Origin: Rhynchonema sp. JSB1_4 | Lineage: Eukaryota; Nematoda; Chromadorea; Monhysterida; Xyalidae | Reading direction: 5' to 3' | DNA length: 64,000 nucleotides | Assembly (NCBI GenBank): GCA_030248065.1 | Contig: JASAMV010000285.1 | Coordinates: 37,947 to 101,946 of the forward strand | Shown here: positions 1 to 48,168 of the stretch, one piece after another | Layout of the letters: each line of letters begins with the position of its first letter | Position numbering within the stretch: position 1 is the first letter of the stretch | Translations under genes and position numbers: made by a program | The notes under the pieces: generated by a model | The model's database searches: none | What the model saw: the letters and a program-made list of their open reading frames with translations, nothing else | Told to the model about the DNA's origin: nothing

Positions 1-2227
1 GCGCCGCAGCCACAGGAGAACGTAATGTTTCAGCGATGCCAGCCAAACGCGGACTCGATTCATCCGATGGACGTTCCTGAATTGATAAAAATATTATTGT
101 TTAATTTATTAAAAATAATTTTGTTAATATTGAGCAGAGTTAATTCGCTTTTGTGGTGACAGCAACAAACATGACATGATCAATATTTTCAATCGCCTCC
201 TCACCTCCACTGAACAGGGATCTTATAGTTCTGGGTTGGTAAGATGGCATTAGGTTGAGGGCCGAACAACAGTTTGTCCGTCTTGCATGGGTAGCAAAAG
301 GAGTGTATAGCAGTGTTTTATTGAGTTTTGTATAAATGTTAGCAATTTTTATTATAATAGAGCAGTCTAAAGAACCGTCAAGTCGCCACCGAGCCGTCTG
401 ACTGGTTAGTACTGGACTGAAAACCAGCATAAAAGGCCCACAGGTGGTAAAAAACGTTTTTGTCTGAAAAAAACGGAAAAAAGGGTTTTTCTAGAGGTCA
501 AATAACGAACCGATATTTTTCCGGGCACTGAAAAAATATTGGAAATTTTCGGAAACATTTCCAAATTTTCCAAGGAAAATTGGAAAGTCGCGAGGTCAGC
601 TTTTCAAATCGTGCAAAAACAGCATTCTTTAATGTGTTTTGGTAGACTTGTGTAGGATGCAATTTCCTCATGAAGCAATTTTAGACCACATTTTGCCCAA
701 ATGTGCCCCATTTGAACAGGCGGCCAACTGTTGGCCTGGAAAAAGGGAAAAAACGTTTTTTACGGTAAATATATATTTTCCGGACAAATTGCAACTATAC
801 ACGCACTGACTGGCTGCTGAACGAGTGAGAAAACCAATCAGCACGAAACAGAATCAGTCCCCCGTTCTTTTACAGAACGAATCTACTCAGGCCAGAAACG
901 ACAAAACACGAATAATGAGCCATAAAGCAACGCATTACCTTCAACAACGAACGCACACCAGTTAACACGGGCGATTTCGCATTTGGAGGTGTTTTTACCA
1001 GACGGCTGACACCTTGCACGTTGGGTGACACCTGGGAATGTTACGGTCACAGCGTAAAGGATTGCGAACAAAAACCACATATTACTGTTCTGTCTTTCTG
1101 TTTTTGAAAATAAAAAGAAACAAATCATTTAGGGCCGTATCAACCGTGAAGGCAACTGTTTTGGCATGGGCAAAGTTTGCTTAAACCGCATTTTATGATT
1201 TGGCGGGCGCACCGATTTTTGACCAGCGTAAAAGTCGAACCTTCCGTAAGAGCGCCGTCGTTGCTTAATCGCCAGCCAAATGTAAGTTGATACGGCCCTC
1301 AAATGAAGACAATTAGTTCCCCAATTGCGCACGCCTGCGTTGTTTTAGCTGTCCCAACACCAAAGTAAAGATGTGAAAGCCAGAATTGATCAGACATAAC
1401 CGTCACGTCAACCGACAGTCACCACCCAAACTATTCCTTGCACCTGTGGTTTCGGTGTTTTCACCAGCTCAGCCACACCCTGCAGTTGTGGTGACGATGA
1501 GGCGGATCGTCGTTTTGGCACACGCAATAGCTCGGCGACGCCCGTCAGCTGGGGTGATGCCTGAAGTGGAAAGGAGAGAACGCGATGAAGAATGATGCTG
1601 ATTGGTCCGTAAGCACATCGTACAAATGTTTCGTCACGTCTACATTTGTGAATTGCGAAGCACGGTTGTTTCATTCGTATCAAAGCAGATAACCGCGAAA
1701 ATCAGAGACGAAAACACGCGTTGAGCTGAATTTAACTGGAACAAAACGTGAGCCTCAGGTCCGAACAGTTTGACAGCATGGAAAATCAGACGGTAATTCC
1801 AGCTAGATGTTTGATCTCATCACCGGCTCAGTACAACCAGATTGGCAATCGACTTATACAATCTCAGTGTAACATCAGTGTTTTCATTGAATTCATTTTT
1901 GTCGACATTGGCGAGAAACCAGGAAAAGCGAACTTCGCAGTGTACACCAGCTGCTCCATCATGAGAACGAAAACACTCCAAAAACGCCCAAATACCACAA
2001 TTCCACAACTTCCAAGAAAATAGAACACCAACCTCCACCCGGGGCGTTTTGACCAATCCAGCCACACCGCGATATTTGGGCGACGGCGGTGCTTTTGGTG
2101 TGCGCATGGTTCGCTTCACACCTCGTAACATTGGTGATTTATTTGATGATTTGCGCGCACTTTTCATCAATTCGCGCACGCCGGTCACTTGCGGCGAGAC
2201 GGCTGTGTGGGTCGAGGATTGCGTCAG
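1..2227 (-). CDS. Ki-67-like short repeats encoded on phase-0 exons
   Basis: Exons 2227-2039, 1560-1444, 1031-939 and 76-<1 carry at least eight units of a repeat with consensus S-P-x-L-x-G-V-x-x-L-h-K-T-P-K. They are SPQVTGVRELMKSARK, SPMLRGVKRTMRTPK, SPKYRGVAGLVKTPR, SPQLTGVAELLRVPK, SPQLQGVAELVKTPK, SPNVQGVSRLVKTPP, SPVLTGVRSLLK and SPRLAGIAETLRSPV. The core resembles the conserved heart of the vertebrate Ki-67 repeat (LxGxKELFxTP). The three complete exons are multiples of three (189, 117 and 93 bp) and begin and end in phase 0; the edge exon also begins in phase 0. The repeats run off the left edge, so their number is unknown. Confidence 0.8.
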
Positions 2228-5200
2228 CTGGAATTTTTATGCCGACGAGATAAAAACATAAACATGAACATAAACTTGAGATTAAAACATATACATGAAC
2301 ATAAACATGAGATTAAAACATATAAACATGATTGAGGGCAAACATCATGGTCACAGATGATCGAGCGTCAGCGTTTTTTATGCGTCGGACACGCGGCTAT
2401 TGTCCTTGTTGTCGTGCAATGGTTTTGACACTTTTTTGCGGTGCAGTATTTTGTATCGAATAAACGGCGCGATTACCAACAAGACCACCCTTCCTTTCCA
2501 TTTCATCGTGGTCGATGAAGCGCAAAACATTTACGTACAGAGTTTTTCTTGGGTTTTCAACAAAGATTCCTGGTTAATCAAAAAATACCCTGCATGTTTC
2601 TCTCACTTCAAATCGACCTAAAATCACAAATTGCAGACACCCAGAATTTTCAAATTTGGCTACTAAAACGAAATCCCAGGTAGATTTTGAAAAAATCACC
2701 CACCCTCGCGCTGGTATTGACAGACTGCGAGTCACTGCGGTCACCGCTGACGATGGTCGACAGCCGACGGGGCGATGAGAACTGCATCAAATTAACGGGC
2801 TCTTCACCATGTTCAACACCCGTTTCGCCGACTACAACATCCGCCACTTGGTCTTCGTCAGTGATTGGTTCGAGTTCTTCGGAGATTTTCTGAAATTTAC
2901 ATGTGGCTGTTGTCTTGTTATTACGTGATTCGCAGTCGTTTAGAAAACAAACAGCAGTTAGGTATGAAATTCAGATCTCACTGAACACGACAGGATGTTA
3001 GTACACTAATGTGAGATTCAATACAATTTTGGTACTACTTTGTTCGGGTCGGGATAAGTTTTTATCGTTTTTCACAGCACAAATGGTACTGCCTGCCACA
3101 TAGCCTGAGAATATATTACGAATCGTCGAAACATTCCTGCATTCTCCGGTATTTGTGTTCAGGCCATCACACCTATTAACCATGTGTAAAAAAACGAACA
3201 TGTAATTAACAAAACATCGAACAACAACAAAACATACAGATTTATTCGCACCGCTGCGTCGCACACTTTTCGGCGGCGACGGAATGTCTTCGAGGTCGAT
3301 CTCCTCAAATTGCGACGGCGAGTACGGTATAGGCGTCTTGCGTTTGCGACCGGGCGATGAGCGAGACGTACCTACGACAATTTATGCGAAAGTTTTGAAG
3401 TTTCTTAGGAACAAAGTGTGGCTTGGGGCACGTCCAAATGCCATCAAGTATCAAGTGCATTTGCACTGACGATGATGTTTACAACACAATACATACTGTA
3501 TTATCAGCATGTGCCATTCACAGGCCGTGTGCTTGCTAAGAGATATTCTAGTCTCTGCCTTAGCAAAACATTTCTTACACAATCGCTCATTCACGAGTGT
3601 TTACGAATGATCAGAAAAGATAAAGGAAAAAAACAATGACGCTAGCAACGCACCACCGCTAATACCAGTGATGTCAATTTCAGCGCTCGAATTATACGAT
3701 CGTTTCGGCGCGAGCTGTGTCTGCAGCTTGTAGATGCTCGCATCACTATGCGTCCGTGCCGCCGTCTCAGTGAAATCGTCGGTCAGCATCGACCTGCAAG
3801 GCGACATTCAAAGGTGGTCAGCACATCAATAGACGCTCATCTTACAAGATCACAAGCAAAACGTTTGCCAACTGCAGTTTTGCCCGTTTCGCGAGTGCTG
3901 ACAACAAAACCCCCACTCGAAGTCGAAAGTATTTGGCGCGTCGGACAGAATATATATATATATATATCTACCGGTGTGGTGGTGGTGCACAAATTACCAC
4001 GAATTATGAAAAAAAAACTCACAGATTGCTCAACATCGAGCTTCTGCGCGCGCTGCGACTCAAACTGCCGCGACTCAACGAGCCAACACTCGGATGCGGC
4101 GTACGATCAATGAGTATCGCCGCCGGACGGGGCACAGGGGCACTTGGCGTGTACGTTGCTGCCCCGCCACTGCTGCTATCACTGACGGACATGGAGACTG
4201 ACTTGGCTGAAACGTGAACCAACTCGCATGTTTTCAACAGCAAACTAATGTGCCTAGCACAACTGGCTGCTACAATTTTGGAGGGTGTCCCTTTTAGAGC
4301 CTTAGCTGTCGTGGGTGATACGTGAAAAAGGTTGCACTTCATAACTGGGCACTACCACCTATCACCAATTTTAATAGCAACCTTAACGAACAACCGCCAA
4401 CCAGCAAACAACAACAACACAACCGAACCCAAACGAACGTGTGCGTTTCTTCGTGATCGACCCCGGTGTTTTCTTCACGGATGACCAACGACCCTTCACA
4501 CTCACATTCAACGGCACACTGTTGCTGCTGCTGCTGTTCGATGTTGAGCGCATGGTGGTGGCGGATGCGCGTGATTTCTTGCCGGTCGATTGTTTGGCTG
4601 CAAGAAATGAACGAAAAAGTGAGAAAAAAACGTGAAGTTGAATGAAACGTGTAACGTGCATCGTGCTCATTGGTGTGTTCATCCATGAACATATTCATTT
4701 AATTTGGCCATACAAACTGTTACTAATTCTAACGTCGCCAACATCCTAATGATAAAACATCAACCCAGAAAGGCCATCAAATGGTTAGATTTGTGTCCAT
4801 CGTTGTAGTAAAACCACCAGCGCCGGTTCTCAAAATCGAGGTAGGGTTTTTTTTACTTCAGACAGCAAAAAACGAAACAAATCACAACTCACGGGTCGGC
4901 AGCCTATCAGCTCCATCCGGCGTTGCGAACATTTCCTCCGCAGTCAGAAACGATTGCGACGATTTCCTCGACTTTGAACTGCTTCGACGTTTGGATGCGG
5001 TCGAGGCGGACGTGCTTGTCGACATGGACAGCTCCGGGATTGACACATCGAATATATCACCCGGGCTTGAAACATCAGCCAGCTGGCCTCCAAAGCCGTT
5101 GCCGCCTGCAGTGCTGTTGGCCAGTGAGTTGGGCGGGACCGGCGGGATAGATGATGTGGTTGACGATGTCGATTTACGGCTAGATAAACGGCGACCTGGC

Positions 5201-8200
5201 AAAAATATTGATATTTTTCAGATTGTTCTGTACGTTTTTGGTAGCGCTAGGTGGGGTCGGTCGAGTGAACCCATCGATGCCCCAGCGAACCAAACTTGTA
5301 TTAACAGACCTTTCGAAACATTTTCGGCCGATGTGGCTTTGCGCACGGGCACCTGCGTTTGCATTAGGGCCTTTTTGGGCTGTGGTGTTTTGGATGCGGT
5401 CTTTTTGATGCCGAAACGCGACACGGGAATGGAAGACGAGAACTGCGGAATTCTGGACACGACTTTCGACTGAAAAAAATAATCGCAGTCAGATATTTCA
5501 ATAATTTAATCGAGACTTCATCAGTTTCAATTTCTAACCTTGGTGACGCTCTTTCGCGGCGAGCGCTGTTTCTGCGCAGACTTCCTGGCGCTTGATCGTG
5601 GAGTGATCTTCGCTTGCAGCACTTGCGCATAGGTCTTTTTCGGTGTTGGCGTCTTCTTTTTGGGCGAGACAGACTTTTTGGCCGATTTCGGTGGAGTGTC
5701 AGTTTTGACTTTGGTCGGCGACGGGGTTTTCGGTTTCGGCGGCGATTTGTTTCGGTTCGGCGACGCGCGGGGCGCCTGAAAAGGAACTTATGCTTTTTTC
5801 GGAATGTCGAGACATTATCATAATGAACGGAGCAGTGCGAGCCGAGAAACTGAGAAAGCACCTAGACATTGAACTGATAAAGTTCCGAAAACCTTTCGCA
5901 CGAGTTCATTTTTCAACGCCAGGTGCCGGGCTGTCATATTAATTAACAGTACCGATCAGTGGCGTGAGAAACGAAATCCAATTCGGGAACTTCCCACACA
6001 CACCCAAAAAAAAACCCCCACCGGGGGGGGAAAAACCCCGGGAAAAAACAAAAAAAAACTAAGCAAAACCGCAAACCGCAAAAAAAAACCCCACCCCAAC
6101 CCCCCCCCCATACCAGGGGGGTAACCCCCCCCCCAACGACACCACTGGTACCGATTGAATACCTATGCCTATTATCATTTTAGCCGGCTCGTCAAACTAT
6201 TCCCTCAAATCTCTGTCACGATGTTTCCCGTCATTCCGCTCACCCGGGCAGCAGCAGCCAACACCGGAATTCGACTCGGCGTCTTCGTGGACACCTTCGG
6301 CGGTCCGGCATTTACGACCGGCGTCGCTGGTTTCATGATCGACTGCACCGATCGCAAACGCGGCAGCGCCATTGTGTCCTCAACGATGTCGTCGGCGTCC
6401 TCGTCGGCCGCATCCGTGTCCTGGTCGAAACTCGATGTGCCTGTGTGACATTGGCAATGGACTGGTTTTGGCAGTTGGCACCAGGGTTTTTTCATCGGTC
6501 TTCTCAGATTTACTCACTGCTGTTACATTGTTGCAACGTAGGTTTGATTCAGAGGTGGGAATCGGGCCGGGTTACCTCGGCCCGGCCCGGCCCGACATTC
6601 AAAAAAGGCGGCCCGGCCGGGCCCGATTTTTTTCGGCCCGACTTTTTCAGATGTTTTGAAGAAAATTTTTTGGTGCAAAAATTAGTTTTTTGTTTAAAAA
6701 TACCTGAAAATTATAGAAGTCGGTCCTAAGCTGCTGAATCGCAAGAAATTTTGGCTAATTTAGAGTAAGAAGTACGATTTTTTATTGAAATTCGATTATG
6801 TCGGGCCTTTTCGGGCTGACCATCCCGGCCGTTCGGGCCGGAAACCTCGGCCCGGCCCGATTCCCACCTCTGGTTTGATTACCCGTTGCCCGCTCTCGTT
6901 GGGTTGCACTTTTGTGCGCAGTAGTGATGTTTTACTCGAGCAATAAGATCAACAAGATCTGCTCGAGGTCGTTTTTGGAGGTCAATTGGCCAGAGGTGTT
7001 CGCTCCGACGAGGCCTTCTGTGAAAACAGGCCGAAACGGGCAAACCTCGCTGCTGTTATATTATTCCAAAGCGGCACTTCGATTTTGTGCCAGGAGGCGA
7101 TTGTCGGCGGTTGATGTTGTTGTAAGAAGGCTATGCAGCAGAATAAACTGGGAGATAGGATTATCTAAATTTTGAACGGCCTTTCGCACAATTTTTGCCT
7201 TTTGTTACTTTTAAAAAGTGAACCAATTCCAAAGCGATTCAAGACCGACAAGATGCCTGAACTTGGTGCTACATATCTTTGTATCTGAAAATAGAGGACG
7301 GCATAACCTCGGATTGCCGAAACTTCAGATTTCTAATAAGGGAAATTAATTGACTGGCTTTTGTGCACCAGACCAGCAACATCATTTAACCCTGACCCGC
7401 CTTCGTTTTGTCACCCGGGCGGAAGTGATAACAACAACAATTCCCGCAATAACCGCACGTAACCCACCAGCCGACGGTCCGAATTCAGCATAATACGACT
7501 TCTTTCCAATTTTCGGTATCGGCGTAACGCTGACGTCACGATTGAAGAGCACGTTTCGTCTGATCACCGACCCGCCCGGCGACCGTTTCGGTGATCGTCT
7601 GCCGGCGGTGCGCAACGCCGATCGCGGCGTCGGCGTCTTTTTCGACATGCCGAACAGTTGAATCGGCGTCGTCACGCCCACCTGCACGATTGATTGGGTG
7701 GGAACGCTGGTTATCGTGAAAGTTGGGAACATGACGGGCTGTTTTTGGGACAATTTTGGAAACCGCTGGTTAATTGATTGATAACGCTCGATCGGACCGT
7801 GCAAAACATTTATACCTTCTGTTTTATTTATTTTTAGTTAGAGTCGAGTCGAAACTATTGATTTACTCGTAATTATGGAAACTGGACATGCATTGGACAA
7901 AACATTTTTGCTCAAGGTCTGGAGATCACACCAGATTGACAGACAGTTCAAAAACTAAAGGAAAAAAGCGTGTTTCTTAAAACAAAAAAAACAAAAAAAG
8001 AATTCGAAGTAACCCACCGATGCCGTGCGCACGGGCGATGATGCCTCCGCTTTCGATTGTTTTCGCAGTTTCTTATTCCCGTGCGCTTCTTCATCTTCGT
8101 CTGAATCAGGACTACCCAAGCGCTTGGGGCTGTCAATCATCTGAACAAAATATTGTTTTATAAATATTTTTCAAGATTTGAAAATTCACTTATTGATCGG

Positions 8201-11200
8201 TATCCTACTTGACGATCGGTGTCTCGTCTTGATCACGCTGCGTCTCTCAGCGTTCATCTTTCAAATGTTCATTCCTACAATTATTTCGACTTAAATAAAA
8301 CAGTGAGATCGAACTTATTACATTACCGGCTATTACAGATTTCCAACTCAAAAAAGACCAAAACAAACAAAAAACCAATACGACAAAATCGCACCTGCGG
8401 CGAGAGAATCAAATGTCGCGGACTGGTGCTGGCCCGCGGCGGACTGCGCAACAAACGTTTGCCAAAGTTCCATTCGTCAAATTCATCAGCGTTGTCCGCA
8501 TCATCGCCGTCGTTGTCGCTGAAGCTGTACGCGTCTGCAATCAATCAATCAATCAATCGACAATTGCACGTGATTGCGATTGTATCATCTGATCACACTT
8601 CGGCCAAGGTCGGATCCAGGAGGGGCCACAGGGGCCATGGCACCCCTTTTGGTCAAATTGGTTCCGAAGGGGAGCGCACGGTCTCAAAAAGAAGGGCTCC
8701 TAAATCGGAAAATTTTCTGAACAAGCACTGGATAAAATGACTTTTCAAAAAACGGATCAAACACCAGATAAAACGAGTTTTTTTTAATTCTGCCCCTCCT
8801 TTGGCCAAAAGCTGGATCCGCCACTGATGATCAGCATTAATTTCATTTTGCGAAAAAAATCAGTTCAGCTCAGTTCTTCCCGGTTGCAGAACAATGCCAC
8901 GCATTTAATTGACGATAATTGTTGTTTTATTGAGAAAATTTTAGTGTGAAAGGTGGCTGCAGCGTCCGTGAGATTCCACGGTGTCGCATACAGAACACAG
9001 ACATGAGACTAGTTGCAAGAGCACACCAAAACAACAATATTTATCATCTGAAGAAATACTGATTCCTCTTTATTTCAATGATGACAGAATCAGCCACTTT
9101 GCTGGCATTGGCCGGTTGTGGTTGGTGGGTGCAACATGGTTTGGACCAAATCTCGCGATTTCGTTGCTCCTGTGGTTTTGGTCCCGCGCAAAAGTTGCTC
9201 CCCTGTTAGCTGTGATAAACTTTCACGCTGGATGGATGACGTCACAGAGACAACGACATCGCAAGATATGGCCCAACCCATTTCGCACCTTCTTCGACCA
9301 CACCCGTCCCGACCCTGCCATGCCCGCAAAGTACACACTGGCCCTATTCTTCACCTGCAGCGCGTTTGGCACGTCTCGACTATCGTGACAAATGGTTCGA
9401 CAAAAAAAACAACAACAATTTTTCACAAAACATCCGAAAAAAACCAACGCGCACCCCGGAACGGCGGCGTTTCATCCTTGGCCGTCGACATTTCCGACGA
9501 ATATATGGGCGAGCGTTTCCCCGACGTTGATGACGATGCACGCGCGTTGGTGGACGAGGACGAATCACGACGCAGCGACGGGGGAAGACTCGCTGGCGCT
9601 GGCGGCAGTGTCGCTGGAATGCAGAACTAACTGATCGAAGTCTGGACAAACAAAACGTGTGTCCCAAAGAAAGCATGATTTGGGTTCCCGTGTGCTCATA
9701 CACAATCCGTTCTTGAAAGGTTTCTTTCGTGTTTTTTTTCCCAGAAAAATACAAAGAACCAGTTCTTCGGCAACTGTGAAGCAAGCCTAACAGCTATGTA
9801 TTTACTGACCCCACGGCCAACGCCCACCCTAAACCCAAATTGTCAGACCAAATCAACGGTGCGAAAGTTTCAAATCGTCCTGGCGCTGCGCGAACCCGAA
9901 ATCTGTATCAAATTATTTCCAGTTTTTTTTTACAATTCCATTTGATAGTACTTTTATTTATTGCGCATTTCGTGACTTTCGCAAACTCCCAAATGACGCC
10001 CGGCAAAAAAACAGAATATCAAAAAAAAACACCACAAAACGCACCGATTTTCTGCGCCTGTTTCGGCGTGAGCACGGCACGCGACGGCGAGGTGGTAGTC
10101 GCTTTTCCGAAAGTTGGATTCGGCGCGGCTGCCGCAACGTTGCTGTAACGAAATCGGTGCTCGCCTACACGCACAATGTCGCCTTCATTCAGCACGACGC
10201 GTTGTTTCATCTCGATTGGCACTTGGTTGATTTGCGTGTGATTGTCGTGCGTGAAGATCACAACCTGGGCGAATACAGAAAAGAGACTAAGGATGAGAAA
10301 ACAGACGCAAGTAAAAAGCTGTTGTTCATCACAGCGCGGTAACCCGGGAGAAGTCTGGCCGGGCTACCCCGCCGCTCCGTCCGAATCAGCCAGTGTAGTT
10401 CCTGGGGGGAGGGGGGGTCCCCCCTCGGGTACTACGTCTGTTCCCCCTCCATGGTACGCCTGCCCCGCTGTTCCCCCTCCGCCCTCCGGGTACGTCTGCT
10501 CCCTCAATTTTTACCTAAGATAGGCTAATTTTGGCCTAAAATAGGCATTTTTATAGGCAAATAGGCCAAATAGGCATAAAATGAGTGATTTTCAGGTCAA
10601 TGACGTCAAAAATCGCCAAAATACCCTTTTTATTGAGGTTTTTTCCTAAAAGGGGCAAAAATGAGCCAAATTTTCGACCTCAAAAAATGACTTTTCTCCA
10701 AATTTGGGTCCTCCCCCCCCTTCCGGGTCCTTCCCCCCCTCCCCCCCAGGTTGGTACGTCTGTTCCCCCTCCGAAAAAATGGGGGTACCGCCTGTTCAGT
10801 GCTGTGGCTACTTTGGCGGGGCGGGTAGGGTACACAGGTGGAAAAAATCGGGGCGGGTAGGGGGGTAATGTACCTGGGATTTTGGGGGGGGGGGGGGAAT
10901 CCGGTTTGGGGGGGGGGGAGATTTTTCGCGGCGGGTAGGGTACAATACAAGTTTTACCGCGTGCATGTTTTTATGAAATAAAAGTTCCATAAATCGGGCG
11001 CAGCGCGATTTTTTTTGACATTTTCAGGGTTTTCGGTCAAAATTTGGGCATTTTTGACCGAAAAATGGGCATTTTGGCGGTAAAAATCGGGGCGGGTAGG
11101 GTACCAGGGCGGGGCGGGTAGGGTACCAGAGCAGGGCGGGTAGGGGGGTGGGTAGCGTACCAGGCCGGGGCGGGTAGGGTACCATTGGAGGACCCCCCCA

Positions 11201-14200
11201 CCCCCCCCCCCCCCCCAGCCACAGCACTGCGCCTGTTCCCCCTCCGGACCAGGAACAACACTAGAATCAGCCTAACCGCGCGCGATGGACTATTGTGGCG
11301 GAATGCGGATGGAAAAGATAAAAGAACTGGCTTTTTCGTGAAAAATGTTATCCAATTTTTAAAAAAATGACGTTTTTGACCCAGTGTAGTACTTGGTCAG
11401 GGTGTTGACGATAGATAGATTGGGAACCGAAATGTGTTGACGATAGATAGATGACCCAAGTCCGAAATCTGGGGGGAGGGGGTCGACCCAAACTTGTTGA
11501 CGATAGATAGATGGTGGGGGGGGTCGCCAAAAATCAAGGTATAGTATAGTGTACTAAGTTGGTAATAATGTGTAAATATTAATGAAAATGTACTAAGATG
11601 CACTAAATCCGCGCGTAGCGCGCGATTTTTTGCCTATTTGGGACAAAAAATACCGATTTTGAGCCATTTTGAGGCAAAAATACCCATTTTGGGGTCGAAA
11701 TGTGTTGACGATAGATAGATTGTTCCCAGAATTTGTTGACGATAGATAGATTTGCCCATAAGTGTTGACGATAGATAGATGAAATCAAAAAGTGTTGACG
11801 ATAGATAGATGAATTTGGGGGGGACCCCCCCACCCCCCCCCCCAAGTACTACCCTGTTTTGACCTCATTTTTCAACATTCTGGACGGAGGTTCATCAACG
11901 CCGAAGTGCCTGCCTGCCATTCAGAGGTTTTAGAAACCAAAACCAAATGAACCAATGTAACTTGGATATCTTGAACAGTTTCTATGTTTTCAATGACACG
12001 TCTTTGCACTTTGCTTCAATGCAATTTTTGCGGTCCACAAAGAACCGGTTTTTCAGGGACGGGAGGGAAGGGAGGCAGCGGCGTCCGCGTTTTTTCTGCC
12101 CGAACCCCGAACCGACCGACGGACGGTGCCAGCCAAAAATGAACTCACTTTCTTGTCTTCATCCAAAATCACATCGCACTGATGAGCGGAACCGCCCGGA
12201 ATGCAGATCGACATGTCAGAGCTACTGAAAAAAAACAAAAAAACGGTTAAGAAATGAATGCACAGAAGCAGAGGTCGCAATCGGGCCGGCCCGACCTCGG
12301 GCCGGGCCGGGCCGCGATTTTGGGCTTTTGACTCGGGCCGGGCCGGAGATTTGGAGGGTCGGGCCAGGCCGGGCACCCCGGCCCGAAGCTTCTGAAGTGA
12401 CTTATTTTACTAAAAAAGTAGGGATTTTTTTGTCAAAAAATACTAAAATTTTTGACGGATTCGGGAAGTAAGTGATCAGTATTGTCTATCTGACGACTTT
12501 TTCATGGAAAACAATCAGTGGTGTGGCTACCCAAGCGTGCAATCAACCTACTGTACCACCAGAAAGGCCTACAATCAACCTACCTGCTGTACCGGCCGAG
12601 CTAGGGGGGGAGCAAAATTTTTTGTCTAAATTTTGGTGAAAATGTGCTCTAAAACGCCAATTTCGCGCGCAGCGCGCTTTTTTTCGCCTATTTGGAGCAG
12701 TGTTGGAGGTGGGGGGGGGGTTTGGGGAGGGTAGCCCCCCCCCCAGTACAGTAGGTATCCCCCTCGCCTGGTACAGTAGGTATCCCCCCCGATGTTTGGC
12801 ATGGTACAGTAGGTATCCCCCCCCCGATTTTCACCCCGGTACAGTAGGTATCCCCCCGATTTTGCCCCAAAAGTGCCAATTTTTGACCAAAATGGCCAAA
12901 ATTAGTGTAAAATCAGTGGTTTTTACCTCAAATTACCCCAAATTCGCGCGCTACGCGCGCAAATACTACGTTTTCACACGATTCCACACATAATAAACAC
13001 ATAAAAAATTTTCACCCCAAAACCTAACCCCCCCCCCCCCCCAAACCCCCCCTAGGTACATAACCCCCAGGCCATCGGCTCTGGTACACAATGGTGTGGC
13101 TGGGGGGGGGGGTGGGGGGTGGGGTCCCCCCCCAAGGTACAGTAGGTAGGTTGCCGCCCCTCGCCTGGTACAGTAGGTAGGTTGCCGCCCCCAGTGTAGT
13201 TCCTGGTCCGGCGCGGCGGTTAGTGTACCTACCCCTTTTTTCCGTGCGGCGGTTAGTGTACCTCCCTGGGGGGGCCGGGGGGGGGGGACGACCCAAATCC
13301 AGGAAAAAGTCACTTTTTGGGGTAGAAAATTTGACCGATTTTTGGCCCTTTTTGGAAAAAATTCTTCATGAAAAGGGTATTTTGGCGACTTTTGACATCA
13401 TTGACCTAAAAATCACTCATTTTAGGCCTAAAAATGCCCATTTTAGGCCTAAAAATGCCAATTTTAGGCAAAAATTGAGGCGGTTAGTGTACCTGGCGCG
13501 GCGGTTAGTGTACTAGTGTACCTTGGTCGCGGCGGTTAGTGTACCTTAGGGGGGGGACCCCCCCCTCCCCCCCCCAGGAACTACACTGGCCGCCCCTCCC
13601 CTGGTACAGTAGGTAGGTTGCCGCCCCACCTAACTTTTCACCCAAAACATTCATTTTTGGCTTAAAATTGCATAAAATTAGCATATTTGTCTGCAAATAG
13701 GCGAAAAATCGCGCGCTGCGCGCGAAATTAGTGTTTTAGGCCACATTTTCTTCAGTATTTAGACATAAAAAATTTCGGTTTCCAGATGACCCCCCCCCAA
13801 GTGGTACGACCCCCCCCCCTAGCTCGGCTGGTACAGTAGGTAGGTTGCCGCCCCGCATTTTGGGTGGTACAGTAGGTTGCCGCCCCGCCTGGGTAGCTAC
13901 ACCACTGCTGGTACAGTAGGTATCCCCCCTCTCCGAGCGCGGTACAGTAGGTATCCCCCCTCCAGAGTACCTCCAACACTGATTTGGAGTGAAAAATATC
14001 GATTTTGTACGATTTTGAGCCAAAAATAGCAACCTACTGTACCAGCCGGGGCAGTGTAGTTCCTGGTCCGGCGCGGCGGTTAGTGTACCTACCCCTTTTT
14101 TCCGTGCGGCGGTTAGTGTACCTCCCTGGGGGAGGAAGGGGGGGGGGAAGACCCAAATTCAGGAAAAAGTCACTTTTTGAGGTAGAAAATTTGACCGATT

Positions 14201-15994
14201 TTTGGCCCTTTTTGGAAAAAATTCTCCATAATAAGGGTATTTTGGCGACTTTTGACAACATCGACCTAAAAATCACCCATTTTAGGCCTAAAAATGCCCA
14301 TTTTGGGCCTAAAAATGCCTATTTTAGGCAAAAATTGAGGCGGTTAGTGTACCTGGCGCGGCGGTTAGTGTACTAGTGTACCTTGGTCGCGGCGGTTAGT
14401 GTACCTTAGGGGGGGGGACCCCCCCTCCCCCCCCAGGAACTACACTGAGCCGGGGGCGGCTACCTGCCTACTGTACCAGGATGGCGCGTCATTCTACCTA
14501 CCTACCAATGGTGTGGCTGGGGGGGGGGTGGAGGGGGTCCCCCCCAAGGTACAGTAGGTAGGTTGCCGCCCCTCGCCTGGTACAGTAGGTAGGTTGCCGC
14601 CCCTCCCCTGGTACAGTAGGTAGGTTGCCGCCCCTCCCCTGGTACAGTAGGTAGGTTGCCGCCCCACCTAACTTTTCACCCAAAACATTCATTTTTGGCT
14701 TAAAATTGCATAAAATTAGCATATTTGTCTGCAAATAGGCGAAAAATCGCGCGCTGCGCGCGAAATTAGTGTTTTAGGCCACATTTTCTTCAGTATTTAG
14801 ACATAAAAAATTTCGGTTTCCAGATGACCCCCCCCCAAGTGGTACGACCCCCCCCCCCCTAGCTCGGCTGGTACAGTAGGTAGGTTGCCGCCCCGCATTT
14901 TGGGTGGTACAGTAGGTTGCCGCCCCGCCTGGGTAGCTACACCACTGCTACCTACTGTACCTAAGGGGGCCCCCACCCCCAGCCACACCATTGAAAACAA
15001 TTTATTTTCAACCAAAAAAATAGATTCAAAAATCGCAAAAATTATGACAAAAATTGGGTTAAAATCTGAGCCAAAAAATCGGGCCGGGCCGGGCCGGAGA
15101 TTTGGAGGTTCGGGCCGGGCCGGAGATTTCGGGGTTCGGGTCGGGCCGGGCCGGGCCGGAGATTTGGGGGCTCGGGCCGGGCCGGGCCGGCCAAACCCGG
15201 CCCGATTGCGACCTCTGCACAGAAGTAGCCCACATGCAGGGTAGTACTTGGGGGGGGGGGCGGGGGGGGGGGGGGGGCGCCCCCCCCCCCAAATTCATCT
15301 ATCTATCGTCAACACTTTTTGATTTCATCTATCTATCGTCAACACATATGGGCAAATCTATCTATCGTCAACAAATTTTGGGAACAATCTATCTATCGTC
15401 AACACATTTCGAACCCAAAATTGACATTTTTGCCTCAAAATGGCTCAAAATCGGTATTTTTCACCACAAATAGGCAAAAATCGCGCGCTACGCGCGGATT
15501 TAGTACATCTATACACATTTTCATTAATATTTACACATTATTACCTACTTAATGCACTATACTATACCTTGATTTTTGGCGACCCCTCCCCACCATCTAT
15601 CTATCGTCAACAAGTTTGGGTCGACCCCCCCCCCCAGATTTCGGACTTGGGTCATCTATCTATCGTCAACACATTTCGGGTCCCAATCTATCTATCGTCA
15701 ACACCCTGACCAAGTACTACACTGCCCACATGCGACGGCAAAAGAAATGCTTTCATCAAGGAAAAAATCAAACCTGCCGATCGAAAACTCGGTTCTCATC
15801 GGCGCCTTGACGAGTGGATATTTGTGGCTGTCGGTGCCATCCTGTTTGTAGAAATAGAACCAGCCGTAGAATTCGGTGGCGTCGATTGTCGACGTTGAGG
15901 TCATTTTACCGATCGATCGATTGCTTCGACGTGGGTGCGGCGACGACGATGAGATTTTCGGCGACACAACCGGCTCGTTTTGATCATCAAACAT
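1..15994 (-). CDS. Ki-67-like FHA-domain chromosomal protein, 21 coding exons, 3' end outside window
   Basis: Exons, 5' to 3' on the minus strand: 15994-15774, 12224-12149, 10264-10045, 9613-9455, 8534-8395, 8140-8018, 7681-7468, 6440-6244, 5775-5539, 5469-5310, 5195-4893, 4597-4439, 4206-4023, 3897-3846, 3720-3654, 3371-3252, 2906-2704, 2227-2039, 1560-1444, 1031-939 and 76-<1. I located each by its GT and AG sites. Reading phase agrees across all junctions except around 3846-3720, where two acceptors compete (3720, or 3793 with an unknown donor). About 1,100 residues are visible. The order is N-terminal FHA domain, basic Ser/Pro/Lys-rich middle with an RVxF motif, then short SPxLxGVxxLhKTP repeats. 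That is the order known for Ki-67, which coats mitotic chromosomes and recruits PP1. The family call is inferred from architecture and motifs, not from a search. The start codon at 15994 is the first ATG of exon 1, but the frame stays open upstream; a second ATG lies at 15904. Confidence 0.72.
77..938. other. Intron of the Ki-67-like gene
   Basis: This AT-rich intron lies between repeat exons 1031-939 and 76-<1. At 440-780 there are runs of short A/T-rich words (GGAAAAT and GGAAAAA types). I see no conserved exon in it. A minus-strand frame at 140-430 is open but lacks the repeat signature and suitable splice sites. Confidence 0.5.
1131..1299. mobile_element. Short MITE with AGGGCCGTATCAAC termini
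   Basis: The sequence starts AGGGCCGTATCAAC and ends GTTGATACGGCCCT, a perfect 14-bp terminal inverted repeat around 141 bp. A relative with GGGCCGTATCAACTTTGAAG at one end lies at 41712-41907. It sits in an intron between two repeat exons of the Ki-67-like gene. No target duplication is clear. Confidence 0.7.
3252..9613 (-). CDS. Low-complexity basic middle region of the Ki-67-like protein
   Basis: Thirteen exons from 9613-9455 to 3371-3252 encode a disordered region rich in Ser, Pro, Lys, Arg and Thr. An acidic patch (SFSDNDGDDADNADEFDEW, exon 8534-8395) is followed by many SP and TP sites such as KTPTPRS, KSVSPKKKTPTPKK, SPTKVKTDTPPK and GRKRKTPIPYSPS. These fit cyclin-dependent kinase targets in a chromatin-associated mitotic protein. 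Exon 6440-6244 carries LPRLRSVQSIMKPATP, which may be a worn copy of the C-terminal repeat. Exon 5775-5539 is the most basic. The weakest part is exon 3897-3846: it fits the phase from the left but reaches the next exon in frame only through a poor acceptor at 3720. Confidence 0.65.
6001..6135. repeat. Homopolymer A/C/G patch, probable low-quality sequence
   Basis: This is about 135 bases made almost wholly of runs of A, C and G, with no repeated unit and almost no T. It resembles neither the neighbouring introns nor the GC-rich transposons, so an assembly or base-calling fault is more likely than biology. It lies in the intron between exons 6440-6244 and 5775-5539. Confidence 0.5.
6550..6872. 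mobile_element. Non-autonomous hAT-type element, CAGAGGTGGGAATCGG family
   Basis: The termini are CAGAGGTGGGAATCGGGCC and its complement. They are flanked by a perfect 8-bp duplication, GTTTGATT, at 6542-6549 and 6873-6880. The interior has CCCGG-rich ends around an AT-rich middle without a coding frame. Eight-base duplications and CAG-type ends point to hAT transposition in trans. Copies of the same family lie at 27080-27498 and 41604-41698. Confidence 0.9.
7468..7681 (-). CDS. Exon with candidate PP1-docking RVxF motif (RNVLF)
   Basis: This exon encodes VGVTTPIQLFGMSKKTP and, further on, GGSVIRRNVLFNRDVSVTP. The segment RNVLF fits the protein phosphatase 1 docking pattern [RK]-x(0,1)-[VI]-x-[FW], and it sits in a basic Ser/Pro context like the PP1-binding region of Ki-67 and Repo-Man. 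RVxF patterns also occur by chance, so its meaning depends on the family assignment. Donor GTGGGT at 7467 and acceptor at 7682 keep the frame (phase 0 in, phase 1 out). Confidence 0.5.
8605..8826. mobile_element. hAT-like MITE with CAGTGGCGGATCCAG end
   Basis: The right end, read from the minus strand, is CAGTGGCGGATCCAGCTTTT. The left end, CAAGGTCGGATCCAGGAGGGG, is a worn match. No target duplication survives. It lies in the intron between exons 9613-9455 and 8534-8395. Confidence 0.55.
10045..15994 (-). CDS. FHA domain of the Ki-67-like protein, split over three exons
   Basis: Exons 15994-15774, 12224-12149 and 10264-10045 join in phases 2 and 0 to give an FHA fold. The first strand is WFYFYKQDGTDSHKYPL. 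Next come EFSIG followed by SSSDMSICIPGGSAHQC, and HTQINQVPI leads into VLNEGDIVRVGEHRFRYSN. The SxxH-type loop (SAHQC) and the TQ(I/V)N turn line up with the same places in the vertebrate Ki-67 FHA domain, and GDIVRVGEHRFRY is typical of the last FHA strands. FHA domains bind phosphothreonine. The Arg usually found after the first Gly is replaced by Ser across the exon 1-2 junction, so phosphopeptide binding may be altered. The two introns inside the domain are 3.5 kb and 1.9 kb and consist largely of nested transposons. Confidence 0.8.
10391..11263. mobile_element. hAT-type element, CAGTGTAGTTCC family, with a nested insertion
   Basis: It begins CAGTGTAGTTCCTGG and ends CCAGGAACAACACTA. It is bounded by a perfect duplication, GAATCAGC, at 10383-10390 and 11264-11271. 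The subterminal regions carry several copies of GGTACGTCTGTTCCCCCTCC-like units, as expected of transposase-binding arrays. A second element (10797-11229) is inserted inside. It sits in intron 2 of the Ki-67-like gene. Confidence 0.88.
10797..11229. mobile_element. hAT-type element nested in 10391-11263
   Basis: The ends are CAGTGCTGTGGCTA and CCAGCCACAGCACTG. The flanking duplication CGCCTGTT is perfect (10789-10796 and 11230-11237). GGGGCGGGTAGGGTACC-like units repeat near both ends. A GC-rich palindrome (GGGCGCAGCGCGATT) lies in the middle. Confidence 0.88.
11382..11856. mobile_element. hAT-type element, CAGTGTAGTACTTGG family
   Basis: The termini are CAGTGTAGTACTTGG and CCAAGTACTACCCTG, with the perfect duplication TTTTGACC at 11374-11381 and 11857-11864. 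Seven copies of TTGACGATAGATAGAT, grouped toward the two ends, look like transposase-binding iterons. The centre has the GCGCG-N3-CGCGC palindrome. An inverted copy lies at 15237-15724. Confidence 0.9.
13089..13907. mobile_element. hAT-type element, fourth level, CAATGGTGTGGCT family
   Basis: It begins CAATGGTGTGGCT and ends AGCTACACCACTG, with the perfect duplication CTGGTACA at 13081-13088 and 13908-13915. Its subterminal unit is GGTACAGTAGGTAGGTTGCC. A close copy without the inner insertion lies at 14506-14947. Confidence 0.9.
13192..13588. mobile_element. hAT-type element, fifth and innermost level, CAGTGTAGTTCC family
   Basis: The termini are CAGTGTAGTTCCTGG and CCAGGAACTACACTG. The perfect duplication GCCGCCCC lies at 13184-13191 and 13589-13596. 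GGCGGTTAGTGTACC units repeat toward both ends. The copy at 14052-14447 is nearly identical, which suggests recent activity. Confidence 0.92.
14052..14447. mobile_element. hAT-type element, near-identical copy of 13192-13588
   Basis: It has the same termini and internal order as 13192-13588, but its own perfect duplication, AGCCGGGG, at 14044-14051 and 14448-14455. It is therefore an independent insertion and not a segmental duplication. Confidence 0.92.
14506..14947. mobile_element. hAT-type element, copy of 13089-13907 without the inner insertion
   Basis: The ends are CAATGGTGTGGCT and AGCTACACCACTG, with the perfect duplication CTACCTAC at 14498-14505 and 14948-14955. It shows the uninterrupted form of the fourth-level element. 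Confidence 0.9.
15237..15724. mobile_element. hAT-type element, inverted copy of 11382-11856
   Basis: It begins CAGGGTAGTACTTGG and ends CCAAGTACTACACTG, with the perfect duplication CCCACATG at 15229-15236 and 15725-15732. Arrays of ATCTATCTATCGTCAACA lie toward both ends. It ends about 50 bp from the first FHA exon. Confidence 0.9.
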
Positions 15995-24100: not shown

Positions 24101-27100
24101 GTTTCGTTGCCGTGTTCGTGTCAAAGCCGAGAGAAAGAAAAAAGGGACCTTGCTTTGTTTCGCACAACGGATAATGAAAATGTTTGGGATTGTGTTTTGT
24201 TGCGCTGCCCCCCCCCTCCCCCCGATCGGCTCAATTGCAGTGGGTGGATGGACGAGTGAGATTTGCTTGCATTCATAACCGTTGTTTTGCGATCGTGTGG
24301 TTTTCCCTCTGTAGATTTGTTTGGCATTTGGAATCGGTTTGGTTTTTTTTTCAATCGCGTGTGACTGTGACACGTTTGATGGTAATGACGCAAGCAGTCC
24401 GCTTGCCGTTATGCCATGGGATACAAAAAAAAAAAAAAGGAAAGGTACCGGGGCTCGGGAAAAAGAGAAGAAAAAAAAAGGGAAGGGGATTGCTCTATGT
24501 AAGAATACAGAAAGTGAACACTTACAATACATTTAAGAGAAACTCTTCAAACGCGTTCCTAAACCCGAAAAGGGCAGAAGGGGTGCACGGGATAAAGCGG
24601 CCACGTAACCCCCAAGCCCAGGGACCCCAAAACCGCACAAGGGACGAGGAAAGAAAAAAAAAAACAAAAACAAAAAAAAAGAAAAAAAAAAAAATAAAAA
24701 AAAAACAACATAACAGTATAGCACCGGAATTAGGCAACAGCAAAACAAAGAAGACATCGTGGCATTAGCTTATTGGCGACATATTCACAAGATAGCTTAC
24801 GTATTCAATAGTGTTTGTGTGGGGAAAAAAAATTCGCAACGCGGAATGAAACATCAGCAGGTCAGGTTATCGGAAATTTTGCTATACCTGTAGTGTTAAA
24901 ATCGGGGGTGCTGGCGTGAGCGCGTGTGTTGGGCTTTCGCTAATTTTATTATTGCGATAATGTCGTATACCAGCCGGCACAAAACGCTGAAAAAATCAGC
25001 CCGATCCGTGCAGTAGAAAGTGGTTTTCCAGACACCCGAGAAATCGTGATGTCCGCGTATCCAAATTTCTGGTCATTTTAGTTTTAAGTTAACTCCTCCT
25101 AGGAAACTGAATGAAGTCGGCTAAGTTACATATCAATCGACTCGTCTGGATGTGGAGGTGTCCTAGACAGAGCCCGATTTTTGAAACATCACTTCTATCG
25201 CGAGAAAACCGGCCACAAAGTTGCGTGAGAAAATGGCCGACGTTTCCCGCGCAAAGGGGGCGGAGTCGGCTGCTGATTGGCTGTTGTTGGCGCGCGCGCG
25301 TGTGCGTTTCTTTACACGTGTTTTCTTTTTCTTTTGTTGGCCTTGTTTTTTGGGAGAAACAGCAGCGAGTTGATTGTAAGTTTAAGCCTCGTTGAAGCCT
25401 ACGAAGCTCTTAAAAGCCTACGCTAAAAGCCTAAACGAAGCCTAAGACTGAGATCCCGGCCCGGCCCGGTCAGTCAATTTTCAAGGGCCGAAAAGCGAAA
25501 CATCATAGCTTTCAATGAAAAAGTTGTCAGACAGACAACTACCAGAGGTCGCAATCGGGCCGGGTTTGGCCGACCCGGCCCGGCCCCGGCCCCCAAATCT
25601 CCGGTGGCCAAAGCTCGGCCCGGCCCGAATTTTTTTAGGTCAGATTTTTACCCGATTCTTGTCATAATTTTTGAGATTTTTCTGAACCTATTTTTTGGTA
25701 GAAAAATCATTGCTTTCAGGTCGCAATTGGGGCGGCCCGGCCCGAGTCCCCAAATCTCCGGCACGGCCCGAGCAAGCTCAAAATAGCGACTCGGCGCTGC
25801 CCGGCCCAAGCTCAGGCCGGCCCGATTGCGACCTATTTTTCAGATTGTATTCTCAGATCGCGATCTAGACGTGAAAATTTCCAAAAAAAAGCCAAATCCA
25901 ACATCCAAAAGGACGTGAAAAAGCCAATTCCAACATCCAAATCTAATCACGGCGATGCCTAAGAAGAAGAGAGGAAGCGGTTTGGCGACATCCGGTGCGA
26001 AGCGTCGCGATAAAAACCGGGGCACAGACAGGGCAATTGGAGGAAAAATAAAGGCGAACAAACATACGAGAGACGACAGTGCGGCAGACTCGGTTGGCGT
26101 GGCTGAGACGGTTGGTTTAGCAATATTACCGTATTGTCGGAAATAGAACCCCCCATTAATTGACCCCCCCATTAATTGACGCCCCCTCCCCCCATTAATT
26201 GAACCCCCCTAAATGGCTCGAAATCAAAAATAGAACCCCCCCCATTAATTGACCCCCCCATTAATTGACGCCCCCCCCATTAATTGAACCCCCCTAAATG
26301 GCTCGAAATCAAAAATAGAACCCCCCATTAATTGACCCCCACCCATTAATAGAACCCCACCCCCAACCTTCACCGTACCACAGATTAGTGGTATGGTAGG
26401 GCTGTGTTGTTGTGTCAAACCTTGTTTAAGCTTGTGCACACAACAGACCAAGCTTTTTAAGCATAATTGCCGTTGTTGACGTTAGAAAATACCGAAAACA
26501 AGCCATTTTTATGGGCATTATTAACAATGGTTTTTTGTCGGGGGGGGGGCAAATGAAAAATATACCCCTCCCCAAAATAATTGACTTCCCTCCCCCCATA
26601 AATTGAACCCCCCAAAAATGACCCCAGTGAAAAAATAGACCCCCCGGGTTCTATTTCCGACAATACGGTATTGGCTTGTTTTAATTAGAGGAAGCTGGGA
26701 GCGTAAAGTCCGGCCCGAGCCCCCAAATCTCCGGCCCGGCACGGCCCGACCCGAACCCCCAAATCTGGTAGGTACAGTAGGTATCCCCCCCTCGCCTGGT
26801 ACAGTAGGTATCCCCCCCGATGTTTGGCATGGTACAGTAGGTATCCCCCCGATTTTCACCCTGGTACAGTAGGTATCCCCCCGATTTTGCCCCAAAAGTG
26901 CCAATTTTTGACTAAAATGGCCAAAATTAGTGTAAAATCAGTGGTTTCTACCTCAAATTACCCAAAATTCGCGCGCTACGCGCGCAAATACTACGTTTTC
27001 ACACGATTCCACACATAATAAACACATTAAAAATTTTCACCCCAAAATCTAACCCCCCAAACCCCCCCTAGGTACATAACAGAGGTGGGAATCGGGCCCG

Positions 27101-30100
27101 GTTACCTCGGCCCGCCCCGGCCCGACGAGGTCCGGGGGTCGGCCCGGCCCGACAGTTCCCGGCCCGGCCCGACTTGGAAAAAAGTCGGCCCGGCCCGATT
27201 TTTTCGGCCCGACTTTTTCTCATGATATTTTGAAGCAATTTTTTGGTGCAAAAATTACTGTTTTTTGGTTTAAAAATACCTGATAATCATGGAAGTCGGT
27301 ACTAATTTGCAGAATCGCGAGAAATTTTGGCAAATTTAGCCTAAAAAATCACGATTTTTATTGAAATTCGATGATGTCGGGCCTTTTCGGGCCGGCCACC
27401 CCGGCCCGGCCCGGCCCGACATTCCGAAAAGTCGGCCCGGCCCGACCGTTCGGGCCGGAAACCTCGGCCCGGCCGCACCGGCCCGATTCCCACCTCTGGT
27501 ACATAATCCCCCCAGGCCATCGGCTCTGGTGCAGTAGGTATCCCCCCTCTCCGAGCGCGGTACAGTAGGTATCCCCCTTCTAGAGTACCGTAAAAACCTA
27601 GATACAGCCCCCCCGGAATAGAGCCCCCTCCAAAAATGGGGCCAGTGAGTTAATAGAGGCCCCCCTTCTATTTAGGTTTTTACGGTACCTCCAATACTGG
27701 CTCGGCCCATACATTAGTGTAGAGGTCGGAATTGGGCCGGGTTTAGCCGACCCGGCCCGGCCCGGCCCGAGCCCCCAAATCTCCGGCACGGCCCGAGCGA
27801 GCTCAAAATAGCGACTCGGCGCTGCCCGGCCCAAGCTCAGGCCGGCCCGATTGCGACCTCTGTTTCAGATTGTATTCTCAGATCGCGTTCTAGACGTGAA
27901 AATTTCCAAAAAAAGCCAAATCCAACTTCCAAAAGGACGTGAAAAAGCCAATTCCAACATCCAAATCCAAATCTAATCCCGGCGATGCCTAAGAAGGAAG
28001 CGGTTTGGCGACATCCGGTGCGAAGCGTCGCGATAAAAACCGGGGCAATGACAGGGCAATTGGAGGAAAAATAAAGGCGAACAAACATAAGAGAGACGAC
28101 AGTGCGGCAGACTCGGTTGGCAACTTTGTGACTTATTTATTTTATTGTTGACAGCCAAGAACGCGGGCTGTTCACTTGAATTTACCGTAAACACCTAATT
28201 ACAGCCCCACCCCGTAGTACAACCCCCCGAAAAACACCGATTTTGAGCCTTTTAGAGTCAAAAATATAAATTTTGGGGTCGATTGTTGTTGACGATAGAT
28301 AGTTTGTTCCCAGAATTTGTTGACGATAGATAGATTCAGTGGTTTTACCTCAAATTACCCAAAATACTACGTTTTCACACGATTCCACACATAATAAAAA
28401 CATTAAAAATTTTCACCCCAAAACTTAACCCCCTAACCTCCCCAAACCCCCGAGGTACATAACCCCCAGGCCGTCGGCTCTGGTACAGTAGGTATCCCCC
28501 TCTCCGAGCCCGGTACAGTAGGTATCCCCCCTATTATGTCATATTATTCTAATAAATATTAATAAATATAAATAAATATTAATGAAAATGTACTAAGATG
28601 TTCTAAATCCGCGCGTAGCGCGCGAGTTTTTTGGCTATTTTGGTAAAAATACCGATTTTGAGCCATTTTGAGTCAAAAATGTCCGTTTTGGGGTCGATTG
28701 TTGTTGACGATAGATAAATTAGCCCGTAACTGTTGACGATAGATAGATGAAATAAAAAAGTGTTGACGATGGATATATGAATTTGGGGTTTCCCCCGCCC
28801 TGCCCCCCCAAGTACTATCCTGCCCGGCCGGACCCGATGTGACCAATGCTCGGCCCCGCCCGCTTTTTTCATCAGATTTTTTTCATAATTTTTTTGGTTT
28901 TGGCAGAAAACCAAAGGTCGCAATCGGGCCGGCTTGAGCGGCTGTAATTTTGCCCTTTTGGTTCGGGCCGACCATGGAAAACTTCGGCTCGGCCCGGCCC
29001 AGCCCGACAGTGGGGCCGGAAAACTCGAGCCTGGCCGGCCCGATTGACATCTCTGGTTGTTTTTTAAGCAACGGCTTTCGGGGATTTTGATTCAAAAAGG
29101 TGGTCTTGCCCGGCCTGGCCAACTCTGAAAACCAGTGCCAACAATCACAATTTTTTATTTTCATTTTCAGAGTCGACAGAACGAACCGGCAACAAATGCC
29201 GACGAAAAACAAACCAAAAAAAGACATCCAAAATCGTGACAGAACCAGACGACCGAGCACACGGGGAGAATAGTGAAGCTGGGATGGTTGGTGAATTTTT
29301 TGTCTCATTTATAATAAACATGCATAAAATGTCTATCGCCGTCGTATTTTCGTTTCCGATGGCGAGTTCGGTCCGCTGCGCATACATTGTTGATCAGGCC
29401 GGAGATTTGGGGGACGGGTCTATAATGCCCTGTCATTATGTCGTCAAATTTTTCGATTCTTTGCCTCCGTAACTAGCTAAAATCGGTTGTTTTTTTCTAT
29501 ATTTTTTTCTAAGTCGGCCTGGCTCGGCCCGTTTTGGTTTGAGATCGGCCCGGTACGGCCCGGCCCGGTCCGGCCCAGCTCGGTCGGAGAGCTTTCAAGG
29601 GTCGAAAACTGAAAATGTCCAAAATGAAAAAAATCCAAAAAACTCTGCTGGATACTCGTTTTAAGCCTCAAGCAATACTTTTTACGTACATGCATATTTT
29701 TACATAATATACATTAGTGAAGCCTTTTTGACACTAGGTAAATTCATGTGACTGGTTTTGGTGTGTGCATTGCTTCGCTTCGTTTTTTTTCGCGTATTTT
29801 TGAAGCAATTTTTTGGCAGGAAACCAGTGGTCACAATCGGGCTGGCCCGACCCATGGAGCATCGAGCATTTCTGGTCAAATATTGTTCCTTAACGACGAT
29901 ACAAAATTTTGTATCGAGCATTGTTGGTGGTTGAACAAACGAGAGAGCAGCGCAGCTGGAGTGGTTGGTGCATTTTTTTGTTTCAGTTGGCTGGTGGGAA
30001 AATTCAGTATCGCAATTTTTTTCGGTAAAAAAAACAGCGTCGGCCCGAGTATGCAGGCCTGGCCCGGCCGGCCCTCCAAATCTCAGGCCCGTAGTAGTTT

Positions 30101-48085: not shown

Positions 48086-48168
<83 letters not shown>

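Follow-up and report, generated by a model that had tools for sequence, protein, structure and literature searches.

In the DNA of a nematode we read a gene of 28 exons whose product is probably a divergent homolog of Ki-67, within the Ki-67/bridgin family, and would also share its chromosome-coating mechanism, the family assignment being made with this one nematode sequence. The likeness to Ki-67 is supported by the match of an N-terminal FHA domain, by a comparison of repeats in fixed register, by Cdk-type sites and by a strongly basic C-terminus. The original prediction had seen in this gene the architecture of Ki-67, and this is partly supported: no LR-type tail and no recognizable PP1-binding domain were found. 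Because PP1_bind, KI67R and an LR tail were each looked for and not found, the protein is not filed as a Ki-67 member by a strict rule; its function is nevertheless most likely that of a Ki-67. What we count as observed is the gene model at the DNA level, the relationship of the FHA domain, the array of repeats, the abundance of Cdk-type sites and the basic character of the tail.

The window, i.e. the whole stretch of 64,000 nucleotides analyzed, corresponds to positions 37947-101946 of its contig, in an assembly of 204 Mb and 5,747 contigs. The sequence to the left of the window was added, and exons were read by eye and then checked by script. The gene lies on the minus strand, extends from a start codon at window position 15994 to a TGA stop at -2637 (2,637 bases past the left edge), is complete on its own contig and encodes 1,447 aa with a pI of 10.6. 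Twenty exons touch the window, instead of the 21 first counted; exon 20 crosses the left edge and eight more (exons 21-28) lie outside. The start codon with the N-terminal FHA domain (exons 1-3), the RNVLF string (exon 7) and the SPxLxGV repeats were all found on this strand, as announced. GT-AG borders are present in 27/27 introns of the hand-read model by the script check, and the joined frame contains one stop, its last codon, versus 44 and 64 stops in the other two frames. Since exon boundaries were chosen by hand to agree in phase, the phase match is no independent proof; usable alternative splice sites exist for at least exons 2, 12, 14 and 17. Exons 16 onward all begin in phase 0. GC3 of the coding sequence is 0.60 and intron GC is 0.45. 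Searches of the same genome (E <= 10) with the FHA piece (3 matches) and the repeat piece (4 matches) led only to this locus, and no close paralog showed up in them. The window gave no Rfam match at the gathering threshold and no tRNA. TE-like non-coding elements with a palindromic GCGCGC-type core were observed at 10820-15700 (introns 1-2) and at about 26700-28700; they bear short repeat arrays, one of them being TGTTGACGATAGATAGAT at 11403-11793, with its reverse complement at 15297-15686.

The FHA domain is spread over the first three exons. Exon 1 (15774..15994) carries the start codon, a short N-terminus and the first part of the domain (GWFYFYKQDGTDSHKYPLV...EFSIG), with an FHA match in PDB; exon 2 (12149..12224), whose acceptor possibly lies 3 bases further in, continues it with SSSDMSICIPGGSAHQCDVILDEDKK; exon 3 (10045..10264) ends it with NHTQIN...EGDIVRVGEHRFRYSN. 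Pfam FHA matches the whole protein at 4.7e-4 (21.0 bits for a cut-off of 20.7) and the segment at 8.5e-6. Among the 177,635 distinct sequences of PDB compared with phmmer, the best matches are human Ki-67 (2aff, 5.2e-5; 1r21, 6e-5), with 27 of 90 aligned residues identical; CHFR (0.57 and 0.63) and EmbR (0.93) come next. The domain is thus of the N-terminal Ki-67 type, and no profile search placed it in another family. CHFR likewise has an FHA domain and is the next best PDB match, but at 0.57 only, and Pfam shows FHA as the sole domain here. The Ki-67 signal depends on the domain in full, since exon 3 by itself reaches Ki-67 at 0.41, just after an unrelated protein (0.39). Elsewhere in the genome, two further FHA exons had Cep170 (0.046) and ArnA (0.38) as best PDB matches, Ki-67 being unlisted; as single exons with partial domains they are weak controls. 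We compared the six positions which we take, from human structure work, to form the phosphothreonine site of human Ki-67: S45 and N67 are kept, and R31, K46, H48 and T66 are changed, so that 4/6 of these positions differ. Shifting the alignment by one residue puts Ser in place of Ile at the human R31 position, and no visible splice choice gives an arginine after the glycine. Judged by these residues, the domain would probably not recognize phosphothreonine as FHA domains usually do. The NIFK FHA-ligand domain (PF12196) gave 3 matches in this genome, the best at 0.40 and none over the cut-off.

Between the FHA domain and the repeats lies a long S/T-P-rich body. Exons 4-6 (8018..9613: 9613-9455, 8534-8395 and 8140-8018) form an acidic, S/T-P-rich linker, and exons 8-9 (5539..6440: 6440-6244 and 5775-5539) an acidic stretch followed by a basic block dense in Cdk-type sites. 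The string KTYAQVLQAK in exon 9 may resemble one of human Ki-67, and it was left out of the argument. In exons 10-11 (4893..5469: 5469-5310 and 5195-4893), exon 11 bears FGGQL...FDVSIP and a lone FLTAEEMFATP. Exons 12-16 (2704..4597: 4597-4439, 4206-4023, 3793-3657, 3371-3238 and 2889-2704) encode a Ser-rich, mixed-charge region, the donor of exon 12 being ambiguous. SP/TP sites number 69 in the protein (shuffle mean 33.5, maximum 52) and Cdk-type [ST]Px[KR] sites 22 (shuffle mean 6.15, maximum 15), each over 2000 shuffles. One segment has a weak Pfam match to SMC_ScpA (0.014, under the cut-off), which we took as chance.

Nine repeat units occupy residues 961-1123, 16-21 aa apart, in exon 17 (2039..2227, repeats 1-3), exon 18 (1444..1560, repeats 4-5), exon 19 (939..1031, repeats 6-7) and exon 20 (1..76 in the window and on to -127, repeats 8-9). 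At least eight SPxLxGVxxLhKTPK units had been proposed; SPx[hydrophobic]xG[VIL] is matched 8 times (shuffle mean 0.03, maximum 1 in 2000), and there is a ninth unit, TPEFAGLGELF, but the ending is looser than stated, with KTPK, KTPR, KTPP and RTPK found once each and the remaining five units ending otherwise. Compared with the published Ki-67 core LEDLAGFKELFQTP, in a register fixed on the glycine by hand, the nine units score a mean of 17.7 BLOSUM62 units, and 6 of 5000 shuffled motifs did as well. Tests on the best single place are weaker than this fixed-register test: for the 14-aa core the score was reached by 25/2000 shuffled proteins and 43/2000 shuffled motifs, and for the 22-aa motif by 56 and 62 of 2000 shuffles. 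The best eight places in the whole protein fall on the array in 7/8 cases with the 14-aa core and in 5/8 with the 22-aa motif. Pfam KI67R (PF08065) matched neither the whole protein nor its segments at E <= 10, a level at which, as for the other Pfam negatives, HMMER filters discard most weak matches; the KI67R profile had no match in this genome or in the control genomes. In human Ki-67 the repeats are of about 120 aa and lie in one exon, a single exon being the rule in vertebrates (PMC8354752, in the part consulted); here they are spread over four. The string DIADTVK, with a basic RGR stretch after it, is present in exon 20 (window -127 to 76) and again in exon 21 (-669 to -532), which suggests a duplicated exon end.

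PP1 recruitment, another part of the original prediction, found less in its favor. Three RVxF-type strings are present, RNVLF in exon 7 (7468..7681, as RRNVLF, a possible PP1 docking string), RHVRF in exon 24 and one inside the FHA domain, and this is not above chance for the composition (shuffle mean 1.06, maximum 6). No recognizable PP1-binding domain was detected: Pfam PP1_bind (PF15276) is unmatched at E <= 10 by the whole protein or its segments, and exon 7 has no Pfam match; pieces of exons 7, 24 and 11 have no match in PDB at E <= 10. Elsewhere in the genome PF15276 has a sole match, on another contig and below the cut-off (E 0.55), and 0/14 control genomes matched. The KiR-SLiM, FDxxLP(P/A)N(T/S)PL(R/K)(R/K)Gx(T/S)P (Kumar 2016, PMC5005033, as excerpted), fits at best at 6/14 positions, which is chance (shuffle mean 6.16). 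A pattern drawn from exon 24, [RK]x(0,1)[VI]x[FW]x(2,4)LxPx(9,11)[TS]P, was reached in 3/5000 shuffles and was discounted, having been written after seeing the sequence. Recruitment of PP1 by the candidate strings is only a possibility. According to Booth 2014 (PMC4032110), a Ki-67 that cannot bind PP1 at this site still brought nucleolin back to the chromosome periphery in human cells; therefore loss of the PP1 site would not exclude a coating role.

Exons 21-28, outside the window up to the stop at -2637, encode the basic tail. The C-terminal 296 aa (residues 1152-1447) contain K 22%, A 15.5%, T 14.2%, R 7.8% and L 0.7%, with a pI of 10.99. A test for an LR-type region beyond the left edge had been suggested; the tail is basic but Lys/Ala-rich rather than Leu/Arg-rich, and looks histone-H1-like by eye. 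A lysine-rich chromatin anchor is plausible by analogy, because the basic domain of bridgin needs its basic nature and not a specific sequence, and can be replaced by the human Ki67 basic region (PMC7794384, as excerpted). Foldability indices, by a FoldIndex-type formula, are 0.11 for the FHA domain, -0.071 for the middle, which has positive runs, -0.364 for the tail and 0.016 for the repeats, and 372/1397 windows across the protein are positive. Disorder of the repeats is not clear, since their index is slightly positive. As for the features by which the bridgin/Ki-67 class was screened for (Sridhar 2021), the FHA domain and the basic C-terminus are present, and the middle has a negative index overall, positive runs included.

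By analogy to human Ki-67 (PMC8354752, as excerpted), the protein would be anchored on chromatin by its Lys/Ala-rich C-terminus. Its long and Cdk-phosphorylatable middle, for the most part disordered, would project outward together with the repeats as a brush separating mitotic chromosomes, and the FHA end and RVxF strings would bring in partners, perhaps including PP1 at the exit from mitosis. The gene shares with animal Ki-67 (MKI67) the N-terminal FHA type, a long S/T-P-rich body, motif-like repeats and a basic C-terminus. It differs by a Lys/Ala-rich tail in place of a Leu/Arg-rich one, by changed FHA phosphate-site residues and by the lack of a recognizable PP1_bind or KiR-SLiM. As in Repo-Man (CDCA2), RVxF-type strings occur in a basic, Cdk-site-rich protein, but the PP1 domain common to Repo-Man and Ki-67 is unmatched here, and Repo-Man is not known to have an FHA domain. 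No homolog was found in the protein database with the full protein, residues 40-640 being scored (E <= 1, top 7970 word-sharing candidates), with residues 41-160 (E <= 10, 52 candidates scored) or with the 132-aa FHA piece (E <= 10, 3 candidates scored); these negatives are not evidence of absence, because the database may hold few nematode proteins.

Other readings were weighed against a divergent homolog of this family. It is possible, and we put it forward tentatively, that the gene is a genuine Ki-67 ortholog retained by a single nematode lineage, its FHA domain blind to phosphothreonine, its repeats spread over phase-0 exons and its PP1 docking shifted to a place next to the chromatin-binding tail (RHVRF, exon 24). 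An unlikely reading is a kinetochore protein like bridgin (Bgi1, of Cryptococcus neoformans and other fungi), whose FHA domain and middle would bind the outer kinetochore and whose basic tail would bind centromeric chromatin. Bridgin, of similar length (1295 aa versus 1447 here), begins with an FHA domain and ends with a basic region that is exchangeable for that of human Ki67; it also has a putative PP1 site, and its unstructured middle bears 13 repeats (PMC7794384, as excerpted). The likeness is one of architecture. The middle of bridgin is however acidic, with a pI of 4.65 versus 10.65 here, and bridgin is located at kinetochores (same source); the FHA domain matches animal Ki-67 in the comparison with PDB sequences, and the repeats resemble the Ki-67 motif, the one motif to which they were compared. 

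Proline-directed sites and basic tails are common among chromatin proteins, and a body that is disordered, basic and rich in Cdk sites could have given an unrelated FHA protein the look of Ki-67 by convergence. The FHA domain is indeed the sole significant database match, and KI67R, PP1_bind and KiR-SLiM fail; yet the domain prefers Ki-67 among all PDB sequences and the repeats resemble the Ki-67 motif in fixed register, and we regard convergence as improbable. Least credible of all, and very improbable, is that the manual exon joining fused adjacent genes (two or more), a small one for the FHA domain and another for the repeats and basic tail: the model is read from DNA, introns 1 and 2 are long (3549 and 1884 bases) and repeat-bearing, and AATAAA occurs in introns 1-4, 6 and 7 (1-2 each) and 19 (3) for a base-composition expectation of 0.30 per kb, but the frame stays open across 28 exons, a body of this kind is expected to begin with an FHA domain, and AATAAA is absent from introns 20-27 and from introns 8-18, which ties exons 8-19 together.

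That the DNA comes from a nematode, as was proposed from the letters, is supported by 57 matches to the cuticle collagen N-terminal domain (PF01484) and 15 to TTR-52 (PF01060), all over the cut-off. The assignment rests on these families because the canonical SL1 leader was not found in the whole genome (0 matches, whether exact or with up to 2 mismatches), as would fit a gap in the assembly or a lineage that lacks canonical SL1. A divergent homolog in a nematode does not make Ki-67 any older, contrary to the much greater age first proposed for the system, because the Hydra and Trichoplax sequences, aligned with those of Ciona and Saccoglossus in Booth 2014 (PMC4032110, as excerpted), already imply a pre-Bilateria age; Sridhar 2021 likewise names Ki67 as the bridgin homolog in metazoa (PMC7794384, as excerpted). 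Its interest is that the fruit fly, also a moulting animal, has no obvious Ki-67 copy: excerpts report no obvious Ki-67 ortholog detected in Drosophila (PMC9359577) and no predicted Repo-Man orthologs in Drosophila and C. elegans (PMC9576876). Judged by title and abstract opening, none of the open-access papers listed as matches describes a nematode Ki-67. A copy in a nematode would show that Ecdysozoa retained Ki-67, would give a compact invertebrate Ki-67 (1,447 aa) and would help to separate a core (basic anchor, Cdk-rich body, short motif) from vertebrate extras (KiR-SLiM, 120-aa repeats, LR domain). Were it a genuine ortholog, the lack of Ki-67 in lineages such as flies would be due to loss, and not to an original absence from moulting animals.

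Other features were observed in the neighborhood and in the genome. About 1.5 kb downstream on the same strand lies a CHMP7-like ESCRT-III gene, named by eye, which extends leftward from about window -4170; Pfam Snf7 matches a hand-joined piece of it (5.6e-26). A CUB-domain exon (PF00431, 2.6e-6) is found within 47195-49221 on the minus strand, and an adjoining ORF looks by eye like a C-type lectin, although its sole Pfam match, to poxvirus A33R, is below the cut-off (0.0024). The mitochondrial contig, of 13,206 bases, has 9 TGA codons inside COX1 and shows by eye the gene order nad5, cox3, cox1, nad3.
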